From a virus, in the IMG/VR virus record IMGVR_UViG_3300029268_000067, positions 1 to 35,178 of that record: a DNA stretch of 35,178 nt. One strand, given 5' to 3'. Of the stretch, positions 3,546 to 33,606 are shown piece by piece (the first letter of the stretch is position 1; the number at the start of each line of letters is the position of its first letter). A program made the position numbers and the translations under genes. The notes under the pieces are model-generated. The model was given only the letters and a program-made list of their open reading frames with translations. It did no database searches and was not told the DNA's origin.

Positions 3546-3698
3546 ATGAAAACCAACAAACGCTACGAACAAACGGAGTTTGATTTCTCTAAAAAGATGA
3601 AACGCAAACCCAAGTCCAACAACCAAAAGAAAAAGCTGATTAAGCAGATCAGAGAGGAAGAAACCCAAATCCAACTTAAATTATCTTATGAACTCTGA
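3546..3698 (+). CDS. small basic protein of unknown function
   Basis: 50 aa, Lys/Arg/Gln-rich (MKTNKRYEQTEFDFSKKMKR at the start), predicted mostly helical and without cysteines or membrane segments. It begins 5 bp after the primase-helicase stop and its last 11 nt overlap the methyltransferase start, so it fits the operon tightly. The strongly basic charge would suit nucleic-acid or acidic-tail binding, but no family is recognised. T7 carries several tiny genes (4.1-4.7) in the same place. The support is positional: a complete frame that fills the only gap between two certain genes. Confidence 0.55.
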   Translation: MKTNKRYEQTEFDFSKKMKRKPKSNNQKKKLIKQIREEETQIQLKLSYEL

Positions 3699-4311
3699 CC
3701 CTAAAAATCTAAAAGCTATCTACGACGAAATGTATGGGATAAAGCCTCGTCGCGTGGCCGAAGTGGGGGTTAATGATCCACACCTGTGCTCGCTTTTGTC
3801 ATTTATTAACGAGGGTATTCCCACCTTACTTGTCGAACCTTTACCGTCTTGCTGCCAGAATTTGCGTGACGCTTTTACTGGAAAGACAGTAGAAGTTATT
3901 GAAGGTGTCATAGGCGACAAAGAAGGAAGCGTCCTTTTGTATGACCGTGGGGCGGGTAGTTGGATAGAAGATGTTCCGAAAGGTGGAGCACCGGACGAAC
4001 ACCCAAACGGTTGCAATACGAAGCGGGAGGAGTTTAATCATAGCTATGTCCGCACGGTGCGAAGCTACCGCTGGCAAATGGTTGATCCCAGCGACATTGA
4101 CGTTCTTTGCGTTGATACGGAGGGAGCAGAGTGGTTTGTTGTGCGTGAAATGATTAGCCGACCAGCATTGGTGCGCTGTGAAATGCACTTCCCTCCTACT
4201 GGGTGGATGAATCCCCATAACGCAGCGATTCGACAGAAAATGGAAGAAATGGGTTATACTGTGATCGGAGAAGACGTAAGTGATGTTCTTTGGGCGAGGA
4301 CAACTAAATGA
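3688..4311 (+). CDS. FkbM-family SAM-dependent methyltransferase
   Basis: 207 aa. The Rossmann-type methyltransferase pattern of the FkbM family is visible: motif I VAEVGVNDPHL near residue 23, an acidic loop LLVEPLPS near 47-54, VIGDKEGSVLLYDRGAGSW around 73-91, and the typical VLCVDTEGAEWFVVREM block near 139-155 ending a core strand. FkbM enzymes usually O-methylate sugars, peptides or small molecules. The substrate here is unknown. The gene sits between primase-helicase and DNA polymerase and overlaps both neighbours (11 nt and 4 nt), so it is co-expressed with replication proteins. A second, distant FkbM-like protein lies at 29739. It could act on host surface glycans or on nucleotides; neither can be chosen from sequence. 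Confidence 0.75.
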   Translation: MNSDPKNLKAIYDEMYGIKPRRVAEVGVNDPHLCSLLSFINEGIPTLLVEPLPSCCQNLRDAFTGKTVEVIEGVIGDKEGSVLLYDRGAGSWIEDVPKGGAPDEHPNGCNTKREEFNHSYVRTVRSYRWQMVDPSDIDVLCVDTEGAEWFVVREMISRPALVRCEMHFPPTGWMNPHNAAIRQKMEEMGYTVIGEDVSDVLWARTTK

Positions 4312-8114: not shown

Positions 8115-8900
8115 ATGATTGATGCAGGGGGAGCAAAACATTGGCAAGGTGAGCTAGGGAAACTAGCTCCTCAAGTAATCAAGGTAAATGGACATCATTA
8201 CGAGAGAACTGAGTTTGGTGGCCCTTGGAAGTCTTTTGATCCAGCCCAAAGAGCCAAAGATGAACAAGAAGTTAAACAAGCCTACGAAAAACGCATATTT
8301 GACCTGAATACCGCTAAAGATTGGTATTCAATGAGTGAAGATCAACGTAAAGATGTAGGTTCAAAACTGTTCCCAACCATAGCTACCCCTGAAGGTGGGT
8401 GGACAAAAGAAAAAGCAGTAGAAGCTGGTATTTTTTCCAAAAATGCCCTGTCTCGTCCTGAAAGTTCTGCTTCTTTTTTCAATGCTGTAGGACAAACTGG
8501 AAGTATTGTTTCAAAAGGAATGGATACTGAAAACCAACCAATTTATGCTTTTCAAGGTAAAGGAAGCTCCACGGTTGCTTCCGGTTCTGACCCTTCAGGA
8601 ATAACAAGGTTTTCTCAATTAGCTCGTTCTGAAGGATACTTCCAAGAAAATACAGAACTTAGTGATTTCCTTACTGGACTTGGTAGAGAATCCAAAATGG
8701 AAATTACTAAAGCGACTCCTAAATACATAGAAGAAGCTAAAGCCAAAGCACTTAAACAAAAAATAGAGTCTGCTGAAACTATGCCTTCATCTGGTGGACG
8801 ACCTTCCCTTAAACGTGGTCTTTCATCTTCCCCAAAAAATTCCTTGCGTATCGGTGGCGTTGCTGATACTGATGAATCACCTGTAAACATTCCAACCTAA
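8115..8900 (+). CDS. putative virion/tail-assembly protein, possibly gp7.3-like
   Basis: 261 aa, hydrophilic, no membrane segment. The C-terminal tail, GRPSLKRGL followed by NSLRIGG and VNIPT, recalls both the GRAGLKI tail of the preceding protein and the GKKSLSVARSSGGGINI end of T7 gp7.3, a tail assembly/ejected protein encoded in this position. The N-terminal two thirds (QAYEKRIFDLNTAKDWYSMS and the GWTKEKAVEAGIF stretch) are not recognised. Start 2 bp after the previous stop. A virion role is inferred from position and the tail motif only. Confidence 0.55.
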   Translation: MIDAGGAKHWQGELGKLAPQVIKVNGHHYERTEFGGPWKSFDPAQRAKDEQEVKQAYEKRIFDLNTAKDWYSMSEDQRKDVGSKLFPTIATPEGGWTKEKAVEAGIFSKNALSRPESSASFFNAVGQTGSIVSKGMDTENQPIYAFQGKGSSTVASGSDPSGITRFSQLARSEGYFQENTELSDFLTGLGRESKMEITKATPKYIEEAKAKALKQKIESAETMPSSGGRPSLKRGLSSSPKNSLRIGGVADTDESPVNIPT

Positions 8901-8919
8901 ACTAAACCCTTATACCTTT

Positions 8920-9171
8920 ATGCCTATCCAAACTTCACCCAATCCTTATGGTCTTAACGGAGCCGTTGTCGAAACCGGAACCACTGCTGTTACTGGCCGG
9001 TTTTACGCTATCCAATGTCTTGAAGATACCGTCTTTTCTTCTGTTACTGTAAACTACGAAGGAGACGCTATTACTGGTGTCACCATCCCCAAAGGAGTCT
9101 TTCTTTACGGTGATTGGAACGGATTTACCCTGACTAGCGGTAAAGTTATTGCTTACAAAATGAGTTTCTAA
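8920..9171 (+). CDS. small beta-rich protein, likely virion decoration or fibre-associated
   Basis: 83 aa, with alternating short strands and turns: RFYAIQCLEDTVFSSVTV, GDAITGVTIPKGVFLYGDW, NGFTLTSGKVIAYK. This repeated pattern (AIQ-LEDT-F, G-TIP-G-LYG, F-LTSG-V-AYK) is common in small structural proteins of aquatic phages, but their precise site in the particle is not known to me. It has no cysteine pair or membrane segment. It lies 4 bp before the lectin-like protein and may be its partner. Confidence 0.65.
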   Translation: MPIQTSPNPYGLNGAVVETGTTAVTGRFYAIQCLEDTVFSSVTVNYEGDAITGVTIPKGVFLYGDWNGFTLTSGKVIAYKMSF

Positions 9172-9175
9172 AATC

Positions 9176-10273
9176 ATGCCTAATCTTGGGTTACAACTAA
9201 GTCGAACATCTAATTTTTTTGTTGGTGGGGAGTTTTTACCAACTAACCTCTCCGATCTTGTTGTTTGGCTAGATGCAGGGGAAGGGGTTCTATATATTGA
9301 AGGTAACAATTTTACAGACTCTAACAGGACTTTTACACTTTCTGGTTTCCCAACTTCCCCAGCAGGAGGAAGTGTAAATGGGCTTGCTTCACCAACTGGC
9401 TCAATTCAAAATGGACGTAATAGCTATAATGTTCCGTGGGGTGGAAACCTAGATGGAGGATATGCTACTATGTATTGGAATACCAACAACTGGTATTTAG
9501 AGGCAACAGAGTTAGACGGTGAAAATACCAATAATTATGTATATACTGCATCTGGTAATACCACGTATCCTTGGCAAGCTGCTTGGACTGATGGAACACT
9601 TACGCCAACTGCTACTACTGTTGACGTTCCTGCTACTAACAACCAAACCGTAGCTAAATGGGTAAATAAGGTGGGTGATCGCTCGCTCACTCAAACCACT
9701 TTAGGGTTACAACCACAATTTAGAAATTTAGGTAATGGAGATGTGTATGTTAGTTTTAACACTGACTATTTAAAAGGGGAAAACGTTGCTTCTGAACCTA
9801 ATTGGGCTAGTTCTTGGTCTTATTACGTTGTTTCAACTCCAATGACCGCTGCTGGACAAAGCGCAACTATTGCAAGATATGTGTTGGGTCATAGTGGTGG
9901 TAGTTTTTCTAGAGGTGGTTTTGGTTCTACTATAGGATCACTAGAAATTAGAAATGGGCTTTCGGCTTTATCTACAACACCAACAGTTACATCTGGTTTA
10001 ACAGAAAACCCCAATGCAACTTATGTGTTTTCCGCAAGAGTTTTCTCATCTGGGTTTTATTTAGGAAATAACTCTACTTTTGTAGGCAAATCCACACCAA
10101 TAGCTTCATCAAATCAGCGCACTTTATTTCTAGGAACCCTTGGGGGAAGTTCATCTGATAGTATAGTTAGCGGCAACATTAAAGAAGTTTTGGCTTACCA
10201 ACAAACACACACTAACCAAGAGGCAAACCTAGTTGTAGGATACTTGGCTCAAAAATGGGGAGTAACGCTATGA
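9176..10273 (+). CDS. LamG/concanavalin A-like lectin-fold protein, putative virion surface protein
   Basis: 365 aa. The N-terminal DLVVWLDAGEG (residues 27-37) and the C-terminal IKEVLAYQ...QEANLVVGYLAQKWG (residues 338-362) bracket a beta-rich region. That pair is the usual opening and closing pattern of LamG/concanavalin A-like jelly-roll domains in bacterial and phage surface proteins. Many Asn, Thr, Ser and Gly residues and several Trp and Tyr fit a carbohydrate-binding beta sandwich. No signal peptide. It is followed by an ATGA-coupled small gene. A likely role is head or tail decoration that binds host or environmental glycans. No T7 protein corresponds to it. Confidence 0.65.
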   Translation: MPNLGLQLSRTSNFFVGGEFLPTNLSDLVVWLDAGEGVLYIEGNNFTDSNRTFTLSGFPTSPAGGSVNGLASPTGSIQNGRNSYNVPWGGNLDGGYATMYWNTNNWYLEATELDGENTNNYVYTASGNTTYPWQAAWTDGTLTPTATTVDVPATNNQTVAKWVNKVGDRSLTQTTLGLQPQFRNLGNGDVYVSFNTDYLKGENVASEPNWASSWSYYVVSTPMTAAGQSATIARYVLGHSGGSFSRGGFGSTIGSLEIRNGLSALSTTPTVTSGLTENPNATYVFSARVFSSGFYLGNNSTFVGKSTPIASSNQRTLFLGTLGGSSSDSIVSGNIKEVLAYQQTHTNQEANLVVGYLAQKWGVTL

Positions 10274-27172: not shown

Positions 27173-27976
27173 ATGGCTTTTGCTTACACAGACTACACAG
27201 CTAATGGAACTGCTACCACTTTTGGTATCACGTTCCCTCGTATCAATGACAACCATGTAAAGGTGTATCAATCCACCAACTCCGTGTTTAGCTTGGTGTC
27301 TGGAACGGCTTATACCATTCAGAATAACAATGTGGTGTTTAATGCGGCCCCAGCCAACGCCAACACAATCCGAGTAAAGCGTGAAACCCCAAATAACGCC
27401 CGATTGGTGGATTTCCAAAACGGTTCTCGACTTGGGGAAAGTGATTTGGACACAGATAGCCTTCAAGCGTTTTACCTTTTGCAAGAGGAGCACGATGACC
27501 TTGAGCTTTACGGTATTTACAACACCATGTCAGTCATGGGTCAGTGTTCCCGCATGACGGATGGCACGGTCACTATCACCACTCAAGGAACTTACGTCCT
27601 GTTCCCAACGGCTGTAGCTGCTACCCTTGACGCATCAACGGCGAATGGCATTGAACTCGACACTTCAACCAACGGCTTTGTGCTTAAAAATGTCTCCGGT
27701 ATCGGGCGGTTCTTCCGAGTGTATGGAAGCGTTGATGCTACGTCTGCAAACAACCAAACTTTAGGTGTTAAACTTAATCATGTGGGTGGTGGAGGAGTAT
27801 TAAACGCTTCTGAGTGTCGTGCATTTACTGGCTCTGGGAACCAAGAAGCTAAACTTGTTACGTCGTGGATTATTTATATGCCCAATAACACAAGTGTTGG
27901 CTTGATGTTGGCTAACCACAGCGGAACTCAAAATGTTACTGTAAAACGTGCTAGATTGGTGGTATCGGCTGTATGA
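27173..27976 (+). CDS. 17: tail fibre with T7-type N-terminal anchor
   Basis: 267 aa, less than half of T7 gp17 (553). Residues 1-125 are the phage T7 tail-fibre N-terminal domain that docks on the tail: FAYTDYTANGTATTFGITFP, HVKVYQS, TIRVKRETPNNARLVDFQNG, GESDLDTDSLQAFYLLQEE. Residues 130-267 are a short beta-rich distal domain (FFRVYGSVDATSANN, SWIIYMPNNTSVGLML) that could be a trimeric jelly-roll head. The lack of a long shaft suggests either a stubby fibre or an adaptor to which another protein, perhaps the lectin-like protein at 9176, provides the receptor-binding part. The stop overlaps the next start (ATGA). Confidence 0.9.
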   Translation: MAFAYTDYTANGTATTFGITFPRINDNHVKVYQSTNSVFSLVSGTAYTIQNNNVVFNAAPANANTIRVKRETPNNARLVDFQNGSRLGESDLDTDSLQAFYLLQEEHDDLELYGIYNTMSVMGQCSRMTDGTVTITTQGTYVLFPTAVAATLDASTANGIELDTSTNGFVLKNVSGIGRFFRVYGSVDATSANNQTLGVKLNHVGGGGVLNASECRAFTGSGNQEAKLVTSWIIYMPNNTSVGLMLANHSGTQNVTVKRARLVVSAV

Positions 27977-28185
27977 ATGAGGATGTAGAACGTCTAGTCA
28001 GGCTTGAAACAAAGCTGGATGTGGTTTTGGAAAATCAAAACTACTTTCGTTCTTCGTTTGAAAAGCATGACGAACGGATTAAAAACCTTGAAAACAGTCG
28101 TTCTCATACTCTCGGCTATGCTGCTGCCATAGGTGCGGCTCTTGGTCTTTTTCTTGATAACATAAAACACCTTTTTATCCGATGA
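27973..28185 (+). CDS. holin candidate: coiled coil plus C-terminal TM (XhlA/gp17.5 position)
   Basis: 70 aa. Residues 1-43 form a heptad-rich coiled coil (VERLVRLETKLDVVLENQNY), and residues 48-63 (GYAAAIGAALGLFLD) make a single hydrophobic helix followed by a basic end (KHLFIR). This is the shape of haemolysin XhlA-type membrane proteins. T7 encodes its holin gp17.5 in the same slot, between fibre and small terminase. ATGA overlap with the fibre and 4-nt overlap with the small terminase. Holin function is inferred from topology and synteny. Confidence 0.7.
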   Translation: MNEDVERLVRLETKLDVVLENQNYFRSSFEKHDERIKNLENSRSHTLGYAAAIGAALGLFLDNIKHLFIR

Positions 28186-28397
28186 ACAAAGAAGCTGTCC
28201 TTGAAAAACTTTCCGTTCAGTTGGCTGAAGAACTGCTTAATCGCATTTCTAGCGGGGAAGCTGCCCCTGCTGACCTGAACGTAGCCCGTCAACTACTCAA
28301 AGATAACAACATTACGGTAGTCCCTGAAGCCCAACACCCTGCTCAAAAGTTGGCCTTGGTGCTTCCGTTTGAAGAAAAACAACAAGCTCATGGCTAA
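28182..28397 (+). CDS. 18: small terminase subunit
   Basis: 71 aa (T7 gp18 89). Recognises concatemer DNA for packaging. LAEELLNRISSGEAAPADLNVARQLLKDNNI is the conserved T7-type small-terminase core (helix, SGEA-P-DLN-ARQ-LKDN-I). Order holin, small terminase, large terminase is preserved, although three genes now separate the two subunits. Overlaps both neighbours (4 nt and 8 nt). Confidence 0.88.
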   Translation: MNKEAVLEKLSVQLAEELLNRISSGEAAPADLNVARQLLKDNNITVVPEAQHPAQKLALVLPFEEKQQAHG

Positions 28398-28626
28398 ACG
28401 AGATTACGCTAAAGAATATCGGGAATACCACGCTAAACCTTCCCAAATCAAAAACCGTTCCAAACGAAACGGAGCTAGACGTTTGATGATTAAGAAACAC
28501 GGTAAAGCTAAACTCAAAGGAAAGGATGTTGACCACAAAAAACCCTTGAAAAACGGGGGTTCAAATAGTATGAAGAATCTTCGCATCCGTTCTGTGGCTA
28601 AAAACAGAGGGGATAAATCCTTTTAA
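28390..28626 (+). CDS. HNH-endonuclease-like small basic protein
   Basis: 78 aa from the ATG at 28390; the frame is open from 28369, but the MAKRDYAKEYREYHAKPSQI start is the usual one for this phage family. The core KDVDHKKPLKNGGSNSMKNLRIRS with NRGDKS gives the D48-H49, N63 and N72-R73 pattern of compact HNH proteins. Very basic. Small HNH proteins beside terminase genes assist end cutting in several phages; the same is possible here, but a homing role cannot be excluded. The usual CxxC zinc knuckles are absent. Confidence 0.75.
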   Translation: MAKRDYAKEYREYHAKPSQIKNRSKRNGARRLMIKKHGKAKLKGKDVDHKKPLKNGGSNSMKNLRIRSVAKNRGDKSF

Positions 28627-28647: not shown

Positions 28648-29742
28648 ATGAAAAAAATTTTATTGGAATCGGAAATTCCTGATTCTTTGATGTCATTAGA
28701 TCTTAATTGTGAATATCTTGTGGAAAACCAGCAAGTTTCTTACTTTGCTGTCAAAACAAACGGAGATTTGTTGGTTACAAACGTAGGTCAAAACGATTTC
28801 CGTAATTTTAAAATTGATGATGACCTGAACGGAAAAGAACTTGTAGTGTTCCGTGCGGGTGGTGGTGGGGATATTTTGTTTATGTATCCCCTATTGGACG
28901 AGATTAAGCGTAGGTTTCCTTCTTGTTCGCTTACTGTTTGTTGTAACTCTGACTATCACTTCGTAGCCACTAACTGCAAATCTGTTGATAAAGTATTATC
29001 GTTTCCCATTAAAGTTAAAGACCTACCTGAAGAATGTGTTATTCTAAATCTTGAAGGTGCTGTTGAGAAAAACGATGCAGTTCCAGCGGTGGATTGTATG
29101 TTCTGGGCTGCTGGAATGGCTCGTCCCGACTCTGAAACCATTAAGAAATCCTTGGTCTATACCCCAAAGGAGGAAGACGTTCGTAACGCTCACCTTATTC
29201 CTGTAGCCAAAAACAAAGACCGTATCCGCATTGGTTATCAATGGTCAGCCAGTAGTCCTGTCAGAAGTTACCCTCACAAAAACTCGTGCGAACTTGTGAC
29301 AAAATTAGCTCAAGACGGAGGTTTTGAAGTGTGCTTGTTGGGGGAACCAGATAGCATTGAGATCGGTTCTTCTCCCAAAAAAGGTTGGGTTTACAACATG
29401 ACCAAACAGGGTCTTTCATGGGAACAATCCGTAGCTTTCCTCAAATCCTGTGACCTTGTTATCGGCCCAGACTCAAGCGGTATTCACTTTGCTGGGGCTA
29501 TGGGTATCAAAGCCCTCGGCCTTTACGCTCCCTTTCAATGGGACTTGAGAACTAATTATTTTGACTCTGTGTGGTGTTTTCAGCAACGTGGGGAGTGTGC
29601 TCCGTGCAAGCATCACACCAACAACAAAAATGGCCTTTTCCCCAAAGACAAACCTTGCAGTCAATCTGGTCAGTGTGAGGTTTTGGCAACCCTAAACCCT
29701 GACCGTGTATTCAAAAAAGCCTTACAACTACTTAACAAATGA
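28648..29742 (+). CDS. glycosyltransferase family 9-like (ADP-heptose:LPS heptosyltransferase type)
   Basis: 364 aa. Two Rossmann-like halves of the GT-B fold: the first with FRAGGGGDILFMYPLLDEIK (residues 68-87, G71-D75), the second with CDLVIGPDSSGIHFAGAMGI (about 268-287). The C-terminus holds four Cys in C-x2-C then C-x5-C form (GECAPC, PCSQSGQC), common in GT9 enzymes. These transfer heptose or similar sugars to LPS core or to proteins. Residues 1-60 are an extra N-terminal part. It lies between small and large terminase genes and is ATGA-coupled to an FkbM methyltransferase, which suggests a two-step sugar addition and methylation of host LPS or of a virion protein. Substrates are unknown. 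Confidence 0.78.
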   Translation: MKKILLESEIPDSLMSLDLNCEYLVENQQVSYFAVKTNGDLLVTNVGQNDFRNFKIDDDLNGKELVVFRAGGGGDILFMYPLLDEIKRRFPSCSLTVCCNSDYHFVATNCKSVDKVLSFPIKVKDLPEECVILNLEGAVEKNDAVPAVDCMFWAAGMARPDSETIKKSLVYTPKEEDVRNAHLIPVAKNKDRIRIGYQWSASSPVRSYPHKNSCELVTKLAQDGGFEVCLLGEPDSIEIGSSPKKGWVYNMTKQGLSWEQSVAFLKSCDLVIGPDSSGIHFAGAMGIKALGLYAPFQWDLRTNYFDSVWCFQQRGECAPCKHHTNNKNGLFPKDKPCSQSGQCEVLATLNPDRVFKKALQLLNK

Positions 29743-30374
29743 AAACTATTGAAGAACTTCGTCGAATCCGTTGGTTTACCGACTTTGCTTATATCCTTAA
29801 ACTTAACAAGGACATTAAAATCCGAACATTCTGTGAATGCGGTGTGGGGCCGCTGGATATTGCGGCTGCTCCAGAAATCTACAACCAGAAACTTGCTGAT
29901 AAGGTAATTTTGGTTGAACCCAACGAGGAACTAGCCAATCTTGCTGTAGCTGCCATGCCCGATGCTGACATCTGGAGGGTAGCCATTACCGATACTGAAG
30001 AAGTGGGGGGAACAGCCAACTTCCGTGTTAACGGGGGGTCAAGCTACATTGAGGGTCACTGGAGTCCGTCTCCGAGCTACGGCCCCATAACAACGGTTAA
30101 GACAAGTCCCTTCAGGGTCATAGACGATGGAACCATTGACGCTATGGTGCTGGACTGCGAGGGAATGGAATGGGCTGTGTTGAAAAATATGAAAAGCCGT
30201 CCTTATTTTCTCTCTGTAGAAGTGTGGAAGGGTCACCCCCATGAGAATGAAATCTTTAATTGGCTTACGGAAAACAAATACGAGATTCGTTTTACCACCG
30301 GCCCAGAGGGTGAAACCTTCTTCCTAGAACGAAATGTCGAAAAACCAAAAACACGCAAAAGCCGTAGCGATTGA
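29739..30374 (+). CDS. FkbM-type methyltransferase-like protein
   Basis: 211 aa. FCECGVGPLDIAAA (residues 31-44) is in the SAM-binding motif I place. VILVEPNEELANLA is the acidic loop after the second strand, and AMVLDCEGMEWAVLKNM is the FkbM core, parallel to VLCVDTEGAEWFVVREM in the methyltransferase at 3688. The two are therefore distant relatives within one genome. The start overlaps the GT9 stop (ATGA), and its 3' end overlaps the large terminase by 41 nt, so all three are co-translated. Probable O-methylation of a sugar; substrate unknown. The C-terminus is basic (KPKTRKSRSD). Confidence 0.72.
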   Translation: MKTIEELRRIRWFTDFAYILKLNKDIKIRTFCECGVGPLDIAAAPEIYNQKLADKVILVEPNEELANLAVAAMPDADIWRVAITDTEEVGGTANFRVNGGSSYIEGHWSPSPSYGPITTVKTSPFRVIDDGTIDAMVLDCEGMEWAVLKNMKSRPYFLSVEVWKGHPHENEIFNWLTENKYEIRFTTGPEGETFFLERNVEKPKTRKSRSD

Positions 30375-32052
30375 CCCAAGGTTACATGACTTTCGGAATT
30401 TCCTGTATGTGGTATGGAAACACCTAAACCTACCACAACCTACTGATATTCAGTATGATATAGCCGAGTTCATTCAAAACGCACCTAAGCGTTCCATCAT
30501 TGAAGCCTTTCGTGGGGTAGGTAAAAGCTACATCACTAGTGCTCACGTATGCCATCAGTTGCTTCTGAACCCTGATAAAAAGTTCTTGGTTGTCTCTGCT
30601 TCCAAGAGCCGTGCCGATGACTTTAGCACCTTTACCCTCCGTCTTATCAACGAGCTTCCCATCCTCCAGCATCTACGTCCCACTGAAGACCAACGTAGCA
30701 GTAAGATAGGGTTTGATGTCGGCCCAGCAGGAGCCTCCCACAGCCCCTCTGTGAAGTCCGTAGGTATTACTGGCATGATTACTGGTAGCCGTGCTGACGA
30801 GATCATTGCCGATGACGTAGAGAGTGCCAACAACTCCATGACTCAGGGGATGCGGGACAGGGTAGCAGAATCGGTTAAGGAGTTTGAAGCCGTGCTTAAA
30901 CCGGATGGTAAAATCCTTTTTCTAGGCACTCCCCAGTGTGAAGAATCTCTTTACAACAAGCTACAGGAACGTGGCTATGTGTGCAGAATTTGGCCCGCTC
31001 GGTATCCCGAACAAAATAAGGTGGTAAGCTACGGTGATAAATTGGCTCCCCGTATCTGTGATTTGATGGAAAAAGACCCTAATATTTCCCTCAAAACTAC
31101 TGACCCTAAACGCTTTAGCGACCTTGACCTTATGGAACGTGAAGCCAGTTACGGTAAAAGCGGGTTCCAGCTTCAGTTCATGTTGGATACAAGCCTAAGC
31201 GACATGGAGAGGTATCCCCTTAAACTCTCTGACCTTTGTGTAATGAGCCTTAACCACGAGCTTTCCCCCCAGAAGATTGCTTGGGCAGGGAGTCCCGATT
31301 ACGTCATTGATGACCTTCCGTGTGTCGGGATGAGTGGGGATCGTTACTACAGCCCCATGTTTGTCAGTAAGGAAGATTGGCTACCCTACGAGGGGAGCAT
31401 CATGGCAATAGACCCATCAGGTCGGGGAAGGGATGAGACTTCCTACGCAGTTCTTAAATACCTTCACGGTATGCTGTTCCTCACCGAAAGTGGGGGCTTT
31501 AACAGTGGCTATACAGAAGATACCCTAAGTGCGTTAGCAACTGTCGCAAAACGACAGAAAGTAACACAAATCATTGTCGAGGAAAACTACGGTGGGGGTA
31601 TGTTTACCCAACTGCTTAAACCAGTTCTAGGGAGGGTTTATCCGTGCTCTGTGGAGGAAGTTAAGCACAGTAAACAGAAGGAGTTACGGATTATCGACAC
31701 CCTTGAGCCAATCCTTAACCAGCACAGGCTTATTGTGGATAAAAGGGTTATTGAACGGGACTACAGAGATAACCAACACCTTCCCCCAGAAATGGCACTT
31801 CGTTATCAACTCTTTTACCAGATGAGCCGCATCACCAAAGATCGTGGTGCGCTTGCTCAGGATGACCGTCTAGATGCCCTAGCCATTGGTGTAGCCTTCT
31901 GGACAGAGAGAATGGCACAAGATATTGACAGGGCTGTGGAGGATGCTAAAGAAGCCAAGCTAGATGAAGAACTCAGAAAATTTCAAGAAAATGTCTTCGG
32001 ACACAAACCCAGAGAAAAAACATGGATCAGCCAAACCGTAAACGTAATATGA
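30334..32052 (+). CDS. 19: large terminase subunit (ATPase-nuclease)
   Basis: 572 aa (T7 gp19 586). DNA packaging motor. ATPase: Walker A EAFRGVGKS with K64; Walker B IIADDVE (D160/D161). HSPSVKSVGITGMITGSRAD is the T7-type hallmark. RNase H-like nuclease: D360 in AIDPSGRGRDET, and the final acidic cluster DDRLDAL (D510, D511, D514). All catalytic residues are present. The first 41 nt overlap the FkbM gene; no SD. The last four bases ATGA overlap the endolysin start. Confidence 0.96.
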   Translation: MSKNQKHAKAVAIDPRLHDFRNFLYVVWKHLNLPQPTDIQYDIAEFIQNAPKRSIIEAFRGVGKSYITSAHVCHQLLLNPDKKFLVVSASKSRADDFSTFTLRLINELPILQHLRPTEDQRSSKIGFDVGPAGASHSPSVKSVGITGMITGSRADEIIADDVESANNSMTQGMRDRVAESVKEFEAVLKPDGKILFLGTPQCEESLYNKLQERGYVCRIWPARYPEQNKVVSYGDKLAPRICDLMEKDPNISLKTTDPKRFSDLDLMEREASYGKSGFQLQFMLDTSLSDMERYPLKLSDLCVMSLNHELSPQKIAWAGSPDYVIDDLPCVGMSGDRYYSPMFVSKEDWLPYEGSIMAIDPSGRGRDETSYAVLKYLHGMLFLTESGGFNSGYTEDTLSALATVAKRQKVTQIIVEENYGGGMFTQLLKPVLGRVYPCSVEEVKHSKQKELRIIDTLEPILNQHRLIVDKRVIERDYRDNQHLPPEMALRYQLFYQMSRITKDRGALAQDDRLDALAIGVAFWTERMAQDIDRAVEDAKEAKLDEELRKFQENVFGHKPREKTWISQTVNVI

Positions 32053-32639
32053 ACATTCTAACCAAAATCCTAACCAGCCTATTCCCCCGTAAAGACACTG
32101 TTCCGCTATCGCCACCCTCCCAAGCAGTAAAAACGCCTCCTAGACCCCCTGTGACTCAAAAGCGCATGGCTTTTAGCGAATCATACCGACCCTCTCCTAA
32201 CGTATCCCCTAAACCTATCCGACCCCGCTACATTGTTTTGCACCACACTTGCGGTAGTTACGCTGGAAGTGTTGCGTGGTGTCTTAACCCTGCCTCAAGG
32301 GTGTCCTACCATTGTATTATCGCTGAAGACGGTAGGAGAACAGTGTTGGCTACACCGGATAAAAGAACGTGGCACGCTGGGTTGGCTAACTGGAAGGGTA
32401 AGAAAGACCTCAATAGCGTTAGTGTTGGACTAGCCTTTGAAAAAGACACCTACGACAAGCCTCTTACTTTGGAACAGATGTATTCAGCTTTAGAGTATCT
32501 TAAACCGATCCTCAAAAAGTATGAGATTCCTCTTTCAGATGTTATTGACCACAGAATGATTGCTCCCAACAGGAAGAACGACCTTAACCCTGTTGAATAC
32601 AACAAGTTGAAAAAGTTCCTTTTTTCCAACTACCTATGA
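32049..32639 (+). CDS. N-acetylmuramoyl-L-alanine amidase endolysin (Amidase_2/T7 lysozyme type)
   Basis: 196 aa from the ATG at 32049, which overlaps the terminase stop as ATGA; an earlier in-frame ATG at 32022 would add 9 residues. The amidase domain (about 58-190) has Zn ligands H65, H168 and D178 (the T7 H17, H122 and C130 positions, with Asp replacing Cys), plus Y87 and K176 matching T7 Y46 and K128. A 55-residue Pro-rich, basic N-terminal extension beginning MNILTKILTSLF may tether it to membrane or wall and has no T7 counterpart. It cuts peptidoglycan at lysis. In T7 this enzyme (3.5) also inhibits RNAP and is expressed earlier. Here it is a late gene, so that link is probably lost. 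Confidence 0.88.
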   Translation: MNILTKILTSLFPRKDTVPLSPPSQAVKTPPRPPVTQKRMAFSESYRPSPNVSPKPIRPRYIVLHHTCGSYAGSVAWCLNPASRVSYHCIIAEDGRRTVLATPDKRTWHAGLANWKGKKDLNSVSVGLAFEKDTYDKPLTLEQMYSALEYLKPILKKYEIPLSDVIDHRMIAPNRKNDLNPVEYNKLKKFLFSNYL

Positions 32640-33066: not shown

Positions 33067-33606
33067 ATGAGTGATAAATCTAATGTATCTATTAGGCTGT
33101 GTATATCTCCTTCTCTTGATTATAGTGAGGAGAATGTTAAAGACTACCTTGGAAGTATCCCTTTAGGTGATTTAGGATTGGATAAGAAAGACTCTACTTC
33201 TCTACAAGTAATTGCAAAATTGGATAAGAAATGTTTTGTTGGGGATCATCCTGTATCGTTAAAGAATACCTTTTGGTGGATAGCCTATAGCGAGGCTGGT
33301 AATCCAGTAGGCTTTAGTGGGCTAAAGATGTGTAAGAAGAAAGAGAACAAGGGGTTGGGGTATTTCAGCAGGGCTGGGGTAATCAAGAGCTACAGGGGGC
33401 ATGGAACGCAAAAGAAGATGATTAAAGCACGGATCAGGAAGGCTAAGGAACTTGGGCTTACTCATTGTGTGACGTATGTTAAGGGCTTCAATCTGGCTAG
33501 TGCTAACAGCCTTATCTCATGTGGGTTTAAGCTCTACAACCCTCACTACAAATGGGGTGGTAAGACAGCTTTATATTTTGTAAAGTGTTTAGAATGTGGT
33601 AAATAG
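33067..33606 (+). CDS. GNAT-family acetyltransferase
   Basis: 179 aa. FWWIAYSEAGNPVGFSGLK (strands 2-3), then AGVIKSYRGHGTQKKMIKAR (residues 103-122), the acetyl-CoA pyrophosphate loop in R-G-H-G form (R110), then AKELGLTHCVTYV and ASANSLISCGFKLY, the usual N-terminal-of-last-strand motif. Transfers an acetyl group from acetyl-CoA; substrate unknown. Codon use shifts within the gene and includes many AGG, GGG and AAG codons unlike the late genes, suggesting a separate origin. It is set apart from the late operon by a 197-bp regulatory region with its own sigma70 promoter, so probably expressed early to modify host protein, RNA or small molecules. Confidence 0.8.
   Translation: MSDKSNVSIRLCISPSLDYSEENVKDYLGSIPLGDLGLDKKDSTSLQVIAKLDKKCFVGDHPVSLKNTFWWIAYSEAGNPVGFSGLKMCKKKENKGLGYFSRAGVIKSYRGHGTQKKMIKARIRKAKELGLTHCVTYVKGFNLASANSLISCGFKLYNPHYKWGGKTALYFVKCLECGK

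Follow-up and report, generated by a model that had tools for sequence, protein, structure and literature searches.

A GT9 glycosyltransferase–FkbM methyltransferase cassette between the terminase genes of a T7-like lake podovirus, a candidate tailor of virion glycans

To our knowledge, only a few phage groups are firmly known to have glycosylated particles. Glycosyltransferases of the GT9 family are best known for heptosylation of the LPS core, and the LPS enzymes WaaC and WaaF have an important active-site lysine, Lys192 and Lys195, respectively. TibC, a bacterial autotransporter heptosyltransferase, is a protein glycosyltransferase with a GT-B fold (PMC4358343). Phage glycosyltransferases accompanied by methyltransferases are already known, as are such modules in chloroviruses: A064R of PBCV-1 is a glycosyltransferase–glycosyltransferase–methyltransferase acting on the chlorovirus capsid glycan (PMC7019647), and glycosyltransferase/O-methyltransferase sets of mycobacteriophages modify the capsid and tail tube (Freeman et al. 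2023, as cited in PMC11600133). Existing annotations of phage GT9 proteins include RfaF-like and Aah/TibC-named ones. Within the part of the literature that we searched, we found no description of the GT9–methyltransferase pair reported here, of its GT9 subfamily, of the N-terminal domain shared by that subfamily or of its recurrence in head modules.

The phage analyzed here is a T7-like podovirus from a lake, available as an IMG/VR record of 35,178 bases, the whole of which is hereafter termed the window. It encodes a T7-type primase-helicase, a family A polymerase, endonuclease I, a T7-type capsid, a head-tail connector, a tail tube and a large terminase subunit. The region around the terminase genes is organized as follows.

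27173–27976, tail fibre gene
27973–28185, holin-like ORF between the tail fibre and TerS genes
28182–28397, + strand, small terminase subunit TerS (PF11123, E 5e-17; phrog_891)
28369–28626, + strand, small HNH-like ORF (phrog_4590, E 3e-23; weak match to HNH PF01844)
28648–29742, + strand, GT9 glycosyltransferase of 364 aa (PF01075; GT-B fold model)
29739–30374, + strand, FkbM-like SAM methyltransferase of 211 aa, termed FkbM-A (PF05050, E 4.7e-4; TIGR01444, E 1e-4)
30334–32052, + strand, large terminase subunit TerL (PF22530, E 3e-39; phrog_38, E 2e-106)
32022–32639, amidase gene 3′ of TerL

The GT9 and FkbM-A ORFs are both intact. The ATGA at 29739–29742 comprises the GT9 stop and the FkbM-A start, indicative of translational coupling, and FkbM-A overlaps TerL by 41 nt. 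The original prediction of such a coupled pair, located between TerS and TerL and overlapping the latter, is thus borne out, and gene order supports its placement among late genes; an excess of promoters between the genes of the locus was looked for, and none was found. The accompanying statement that this place is empty in T7 is mistaken, given that the Rz-like spanins 18.5/18.7 (36917–37348) lie between TerS and TerL in T7 itself. Small ORFs occupy this interval in L029, L030 and L113. The HNH-like ORF, whose start ATG is probably at 28390, is a member of the packaging module and is kept alongside TerS, including in relatives without GT9. The interval holds a 225-aa ATPase, PhoH-like by eye, in L033 and L035, and small membrane-like ORFs in L113–L118, which makes a cargo site of it, as it seems. 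The packaging module of L022–L026, whose TerL is 74% identical to that of the window, is rearranged, with TerL on the strand opposite TerS and HNH.

Scans of IMG/VR contigs with GT9, the methyltransferase, HNH and TerL as queries yielded 18 related contigs in which GT9 lies beside TerL. GT9 identity is 81%–100% where TerL identity is 95%–100%, and 53%–59% where it is 80%–83%. The second slot is occupied by FkbM-A in 15 of the 18, by FkbM-B (see below) in L020 and L021 and by DUF5672 in L003; GT9 and a SAM methyltransferase therefore occur together in 17 contigs of this T7-like clade. The dN/dS ratios are about 0.11 for GT9, 0.09 for the methyltransferase and 0.03–0.05 for TerL, by which GT9 and the methyltransferase are judged to be under purifying selection. 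Since the pair is kept in 18 related contigs at these ratios, it is not a chance association; combined with the variable second gene, the ratios indicate a maintained cassette with an exchangeable second position. A GT9-family match was absent, with positive controls run, from 14 more distant records, most of them fragments, and from L143, a window-like contig without the interval. In L001, the HNH, methyltransferase and TerL genes and the C-terminal part of GT9 are identical or nearly so to those of the window, and the N-terminal part of GT9 (L001:361–660 versus window 28648–28947) shows about 48 nucleotide differences, suggestive of this domain having been exchanged or diversified separately.

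The window GT9 matches PF01075 with an E-value of 9.6e-11 and 41.9 bits, above the Pfam gathering cut-off of 22. Its AlphaFold2 model (pLDDT 82, pTM 0.85) adopts a two-Rossmann GT-B fold, which superimposes on the Veillonella GT9 protein (PDB 3tov) with a Z of 24.1 and an rmsd of 3.0 over 284 residues, on WaaF (1psw) with a Z of 22.4, on TibC (4rb4) with a Z of 20.4 and on WaaC with a Z of about 20. The alignment begins at residue 57–63 of the model for the LPS enzymes and at residue 25 for TibC. The preceding N-terminal domain, of ~60 aa, is modelled with three strands and one helix. The following elements were located within the gene.

28648–28833, + strand, N-terminal domain, residues 1–62 (domain profile; structural alignment)
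28870–28872, + strand, Asp75 codon, equivalent to WaaC Asp13 (unchanged across 22 diverse members; aligns with WaaF as well as with WaaC D13)
29596–29676, + strand, four-Cys motif C317-x2-C320-x16-C337-x5-C343, resembling the TibC iron finger

Across 22 diverse family members, six residues do not vary: Asp75, Ser202, Arg206, Asp275, Ser276 and His280. The proposed comparison with the active sites of WaaC and WaaF turned out partly as expected: Asp75 and Asp275 align with WaaC Asp13 and Asp261, respectively, but the position of WaaC Lys192 and WaaF Lys195 is taken by Arg206 throughout the family alignment. Likewise, the description of the protein as heptosyltransferase-like holds for its GT9 fold and catalytic-type residues, but the NCBIfam equivalog cut-offs for LPS heptosyltransferases are far off (TIGR02193, 29.7 versus 185.3 bits; TIGR02195, 28.1 versus 134.6), and no BAHT model was listed for it in NCBIfam at E 0.5. 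As modelled, the window protein is a GT9-fold enzyme with conserved catalytic-type residues. It shares with WaaC, WaaF and 3tov the GT-B fold (Z about 20–24) and the two Asp equivalents, and differs from them by the extra ~60-aa N-terminal domain and the phage gene context, and from WaaC and WaaF also by the arginine. TibC likewise possesses an additional N-terminal domain, an Asp base and four Cys near the C terminus. However, TibC is less similar to the window model than the best LPS-type matches; its N-terminal barrel comprises 97 aa plus a β-hairpin thumb, its Cys spacing is x2-x15-x11 (PMC4358343) rather than x2-x16-x5, and it probably has Lys230 in place of the arginine. The four Cys of the window motif are invariant in the T7-like clade, and the first two in the 22 diverse members. 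By sequence comparison, no close membership of the TibC group was seen.

FkbM-A scores below the curated cut-offs of both PF05050 (20.8 versus 22.7 bits) and TIGR01444 (22.8 versus 37.7 bits), and by its sequence is a divergent FkbM relative. Structure prediction yielded a Rossmann methyltransferase (pLDDT 86). The fold search returned matches limited to generic Rossmann methyltransferases; thus, the fold does not identify the substrate. The window contains a further enzyme of this type.

3688–4311, + strand, second FkbM methyltransferase, termed FkbM-B (PF05050, E 2e-8)

FkbM-B exceeds the PF05050 cut-off (34.9 versus 22.7) and falls below that of TIGR01444 (24.3 versus 37.7). Its gene is flanked by those of the primase-helicase and the DNA polymerase and overlaps the start of the latter, and no glycosyltransferase was recognized in its vicinity. 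In other phages, relatives of FkbM-B are partners of GT9, adjoining it or on the same contig: of the 12 contigs with the closest FkbM-B genes, 11 hold a GT9-family gene as well, and the remaining one is a nearly identical version of the window phage, in which both genes are present.

These relatives led to the unrelated phages L147 and L149, in which the genes run portal, GT9, FkbM-B, protease and coat. A profile built from these GT9 proteins retrieved about 60 viral loci, within this analysis on phage contigs only; two limited scans of GTDB genomes with narrow peptide patterns gave no GT9-family relative. A second profile, made from the N-terminal domain, recognizes almost every family member, if weakly in the case of L155, L164 and L193; among the 19,746 ORFs in the retrieved loci it hits no ORF of any other kind. 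In tblastn searches of INPHARED with GT9 and both methyltransferases, no close relatives were found; at relaxed E-values, GT9 matched only Caulobacter jumbo phages and an FkbM-B relative matched only Streptomyces phages. In the Caulobacter isolate CcrBL9, gp178 (SAM methyltransferase) adjoins gp179 (GT9) as in the window pair, whereas the gene order is reversed and the pair lies beside a lysozyme gene, outside the packaging module; gp179 is shorter (285 aa) and 29% identical to the window GT9 over the C-terminal part. As a side observation, the Streptomyces phages ShakeNBake (L215) and Yara (L216) carry, near tail/lysis genes, a glycosyltransferase, a hypothetical gene and a methyltransferase as a triplet, of which the last is a remote FkbM-B relative.

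The neighbourhoods of the GT9 family, given here as a plain listing of positions rather than an enrichment over random placement, show that in several phage groups unrelated to one another its members adjoin genes for the portal, protease, coat or terminase, and that in others they are found near replication genes. GT9 is immediately 3′ of the portal gene in L150–L154, L162–L163, L168 and L178, and a single small ORF separates the two in L164 and L177; clustering with L164 was the basis for calling the portals of L168, L177 and L178 SU10-type. In L183, GT9 is flanked by the TerL and portal genes, and in L188 by those for the head-tail connector and the tail sheath. In the large phages L190–L199, no head genes were recognized near GT9, and in L206 and L207 GT9 and FkbM-B are kilobases apart, close to a helicase judged DnaB-like by eye. 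At most loci a SAM methyltransferase adjoins GT9 or lies within a few genes, and ATGA junctions recur at GT9 stops. The two occur together in the lambda-portal phages L147 and L149–L154 and in L168. The methyltransferase near GT9 is FkbM-A or FkbM-B in L149–L154, L156–L159, L161–L163 and L200, PF13489/PF08241 in L164, and of other kinds in L188; PF13578 or PF08241 together with GT2 genes is found in L166, L173 and L176, and by clustering in L167 and L169–L170. GT9, FkbM and DUF5672 are all present in L152 and L154, and a polysaccharide pyruvyl transferase takes the partner slot in L165. The search for the pair in other phages was therefore rewarded, as GT9 with a methyltransferase recurs in unrelated phage groups. 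That GT9 and its methyltransferase form a functional add-and-methylate unit is well supported; the two-step scheme of the original prediction stands insofar as the pairing recurs, but the second step is not bound to a single enzyme, as the slot may hold FkbM-A, FkbM-B or DUF5672.

We give about an even chance to the pair being a late-expressed phage glycan-tailoring cassette that acts most likely on a virion protein. From the gene order and the predicted enzymes we infer that, once expressed late, GT9 would take a sugar from the host nucleotide-sugar pool and transfer it onto an acceptor that the N-terminal domain would help to select, most likely a head, portal, tail or fibre protein. The ATGA-coupled FkbM methyltransferase would then O-methylate, and so cap, the transferred sugar. 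Progeny particles would carry a methyl-capped glycan, and may benefit from changed adsorption, stability or shielding. Such a course would resemble that of PBCV-1 A064R in that enzymes of the virus transfer a sugar and then cap it by O-methylation, although A064R is a single fused protein with rhamnosyltransferases, from an algal virus and with a demonstrated acceptor, whereas the acceptor of the window pair is a predicted one. The mycobacteriophage sets, as far as the cited account describes them, are alike in gene arrangement, in that phage glycosyltransferases adjoin an O-methyltransferase; their hosts lack LPS.

The original prediction had named either host LPS or the phage's own surface proteins as target, and the neighbourhoods lean towards the phage particle without settling the matter. 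A virion protein is slightly favoured over host LPS because GT9 is found repeatedly among head genes, carries the extra N-terminal domain, parallels TibC and has precedents in glycosyltransferase–methyltransferase sets acting on viral particles; on its own, position carries little weight, since co-expression would be expected of late genes in either role. A less likely reading is that, late in infection, the pair attaches a sugar to LPS or some other glycan of the host surface and methylates it, which would prevent superinfection or keep progeny from adsorbing again to debris. The renown of GT9 for LPS core heptosylation, the nearest solved folds (3tov, WaaF and WaaC), the late position in the operon, and the DUF5672 or, in L165, pyruvyl transferase in the partner slot, which suits polysaccharide tailoring, all agree with such a role, and the LPS heptosyltransferases as closest characterized structures count against a virion target. 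The missed equivalog cut-offs, the family-wide arginine at the Lys192/195 position, the absence of the N-terminal domain from WaaC and WaaF and the recurrent location of GT9 in head genes argue against a host-surface acceptor.

The lack of recognized head genes near GT9 in L190–L199 also speaks against a virion target. So do the GT9/FkbM-B genes by the helicase in L206 and L207 and the window FkbM-B by the DNA polymerase, which fit an improbable alternative in which the substrate is a small molecule, a cytoplasmic phage or host protein, or modified nucleotides or DNA, or in which only one of the two genes is functionally linked to GT9. Against it, the coupling of GT9 with a methyltransferase recurs, and no hydroxymethylase or thymidylate-synthase-like gene was recognized among the window ORFs scanned; the absence of a base hydroxymethylase among them disfavours DNA glycosylation in particular. 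Finally, the interval tolerates inserts, as the spanins of T7 and the small ORFs of L029, L030 and L113 illustrate, and the pair might be neutral cargo with no phage function; with dN/dS of about 0.1, intact genes in all relatives and an active site kept in remote members, this is very hard to credit. Regarding the family as a whole, we suggest only tentatively, at somewhat below an even chance, that the phage-restricted GT9 subfamily, with an N-terminal acceptor-docking domain and an exchangeable FkbM or DUF5672 partner, is a portable virion-glycosylation system inserted several times into unrelated head and packaging modules. If so, methyl-capped virion glycans may be much more widespread, given a portable pair in the head modules of freshwater phages; the pair would be relevant to the stability and adsorption of phages and to their recognition by the immune system, and the GT9 family would be a source of new protein glycosyltransferases.

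The window terminase is closest to those of Roseobacter, Pelagibacter and Rhizobium phages (58%–61%), and no tRNA genes that could help host assignment were found in the window. Elsewhere in the window, two larger ORFs of 261 and 365 aa at 8115–10273 have no Pfam match and weak PHROG matches at most. An acetyltransferase-like gene (33067–33606; phrog_1249) lies 3′ of the amidase gene and is kept in relatives.
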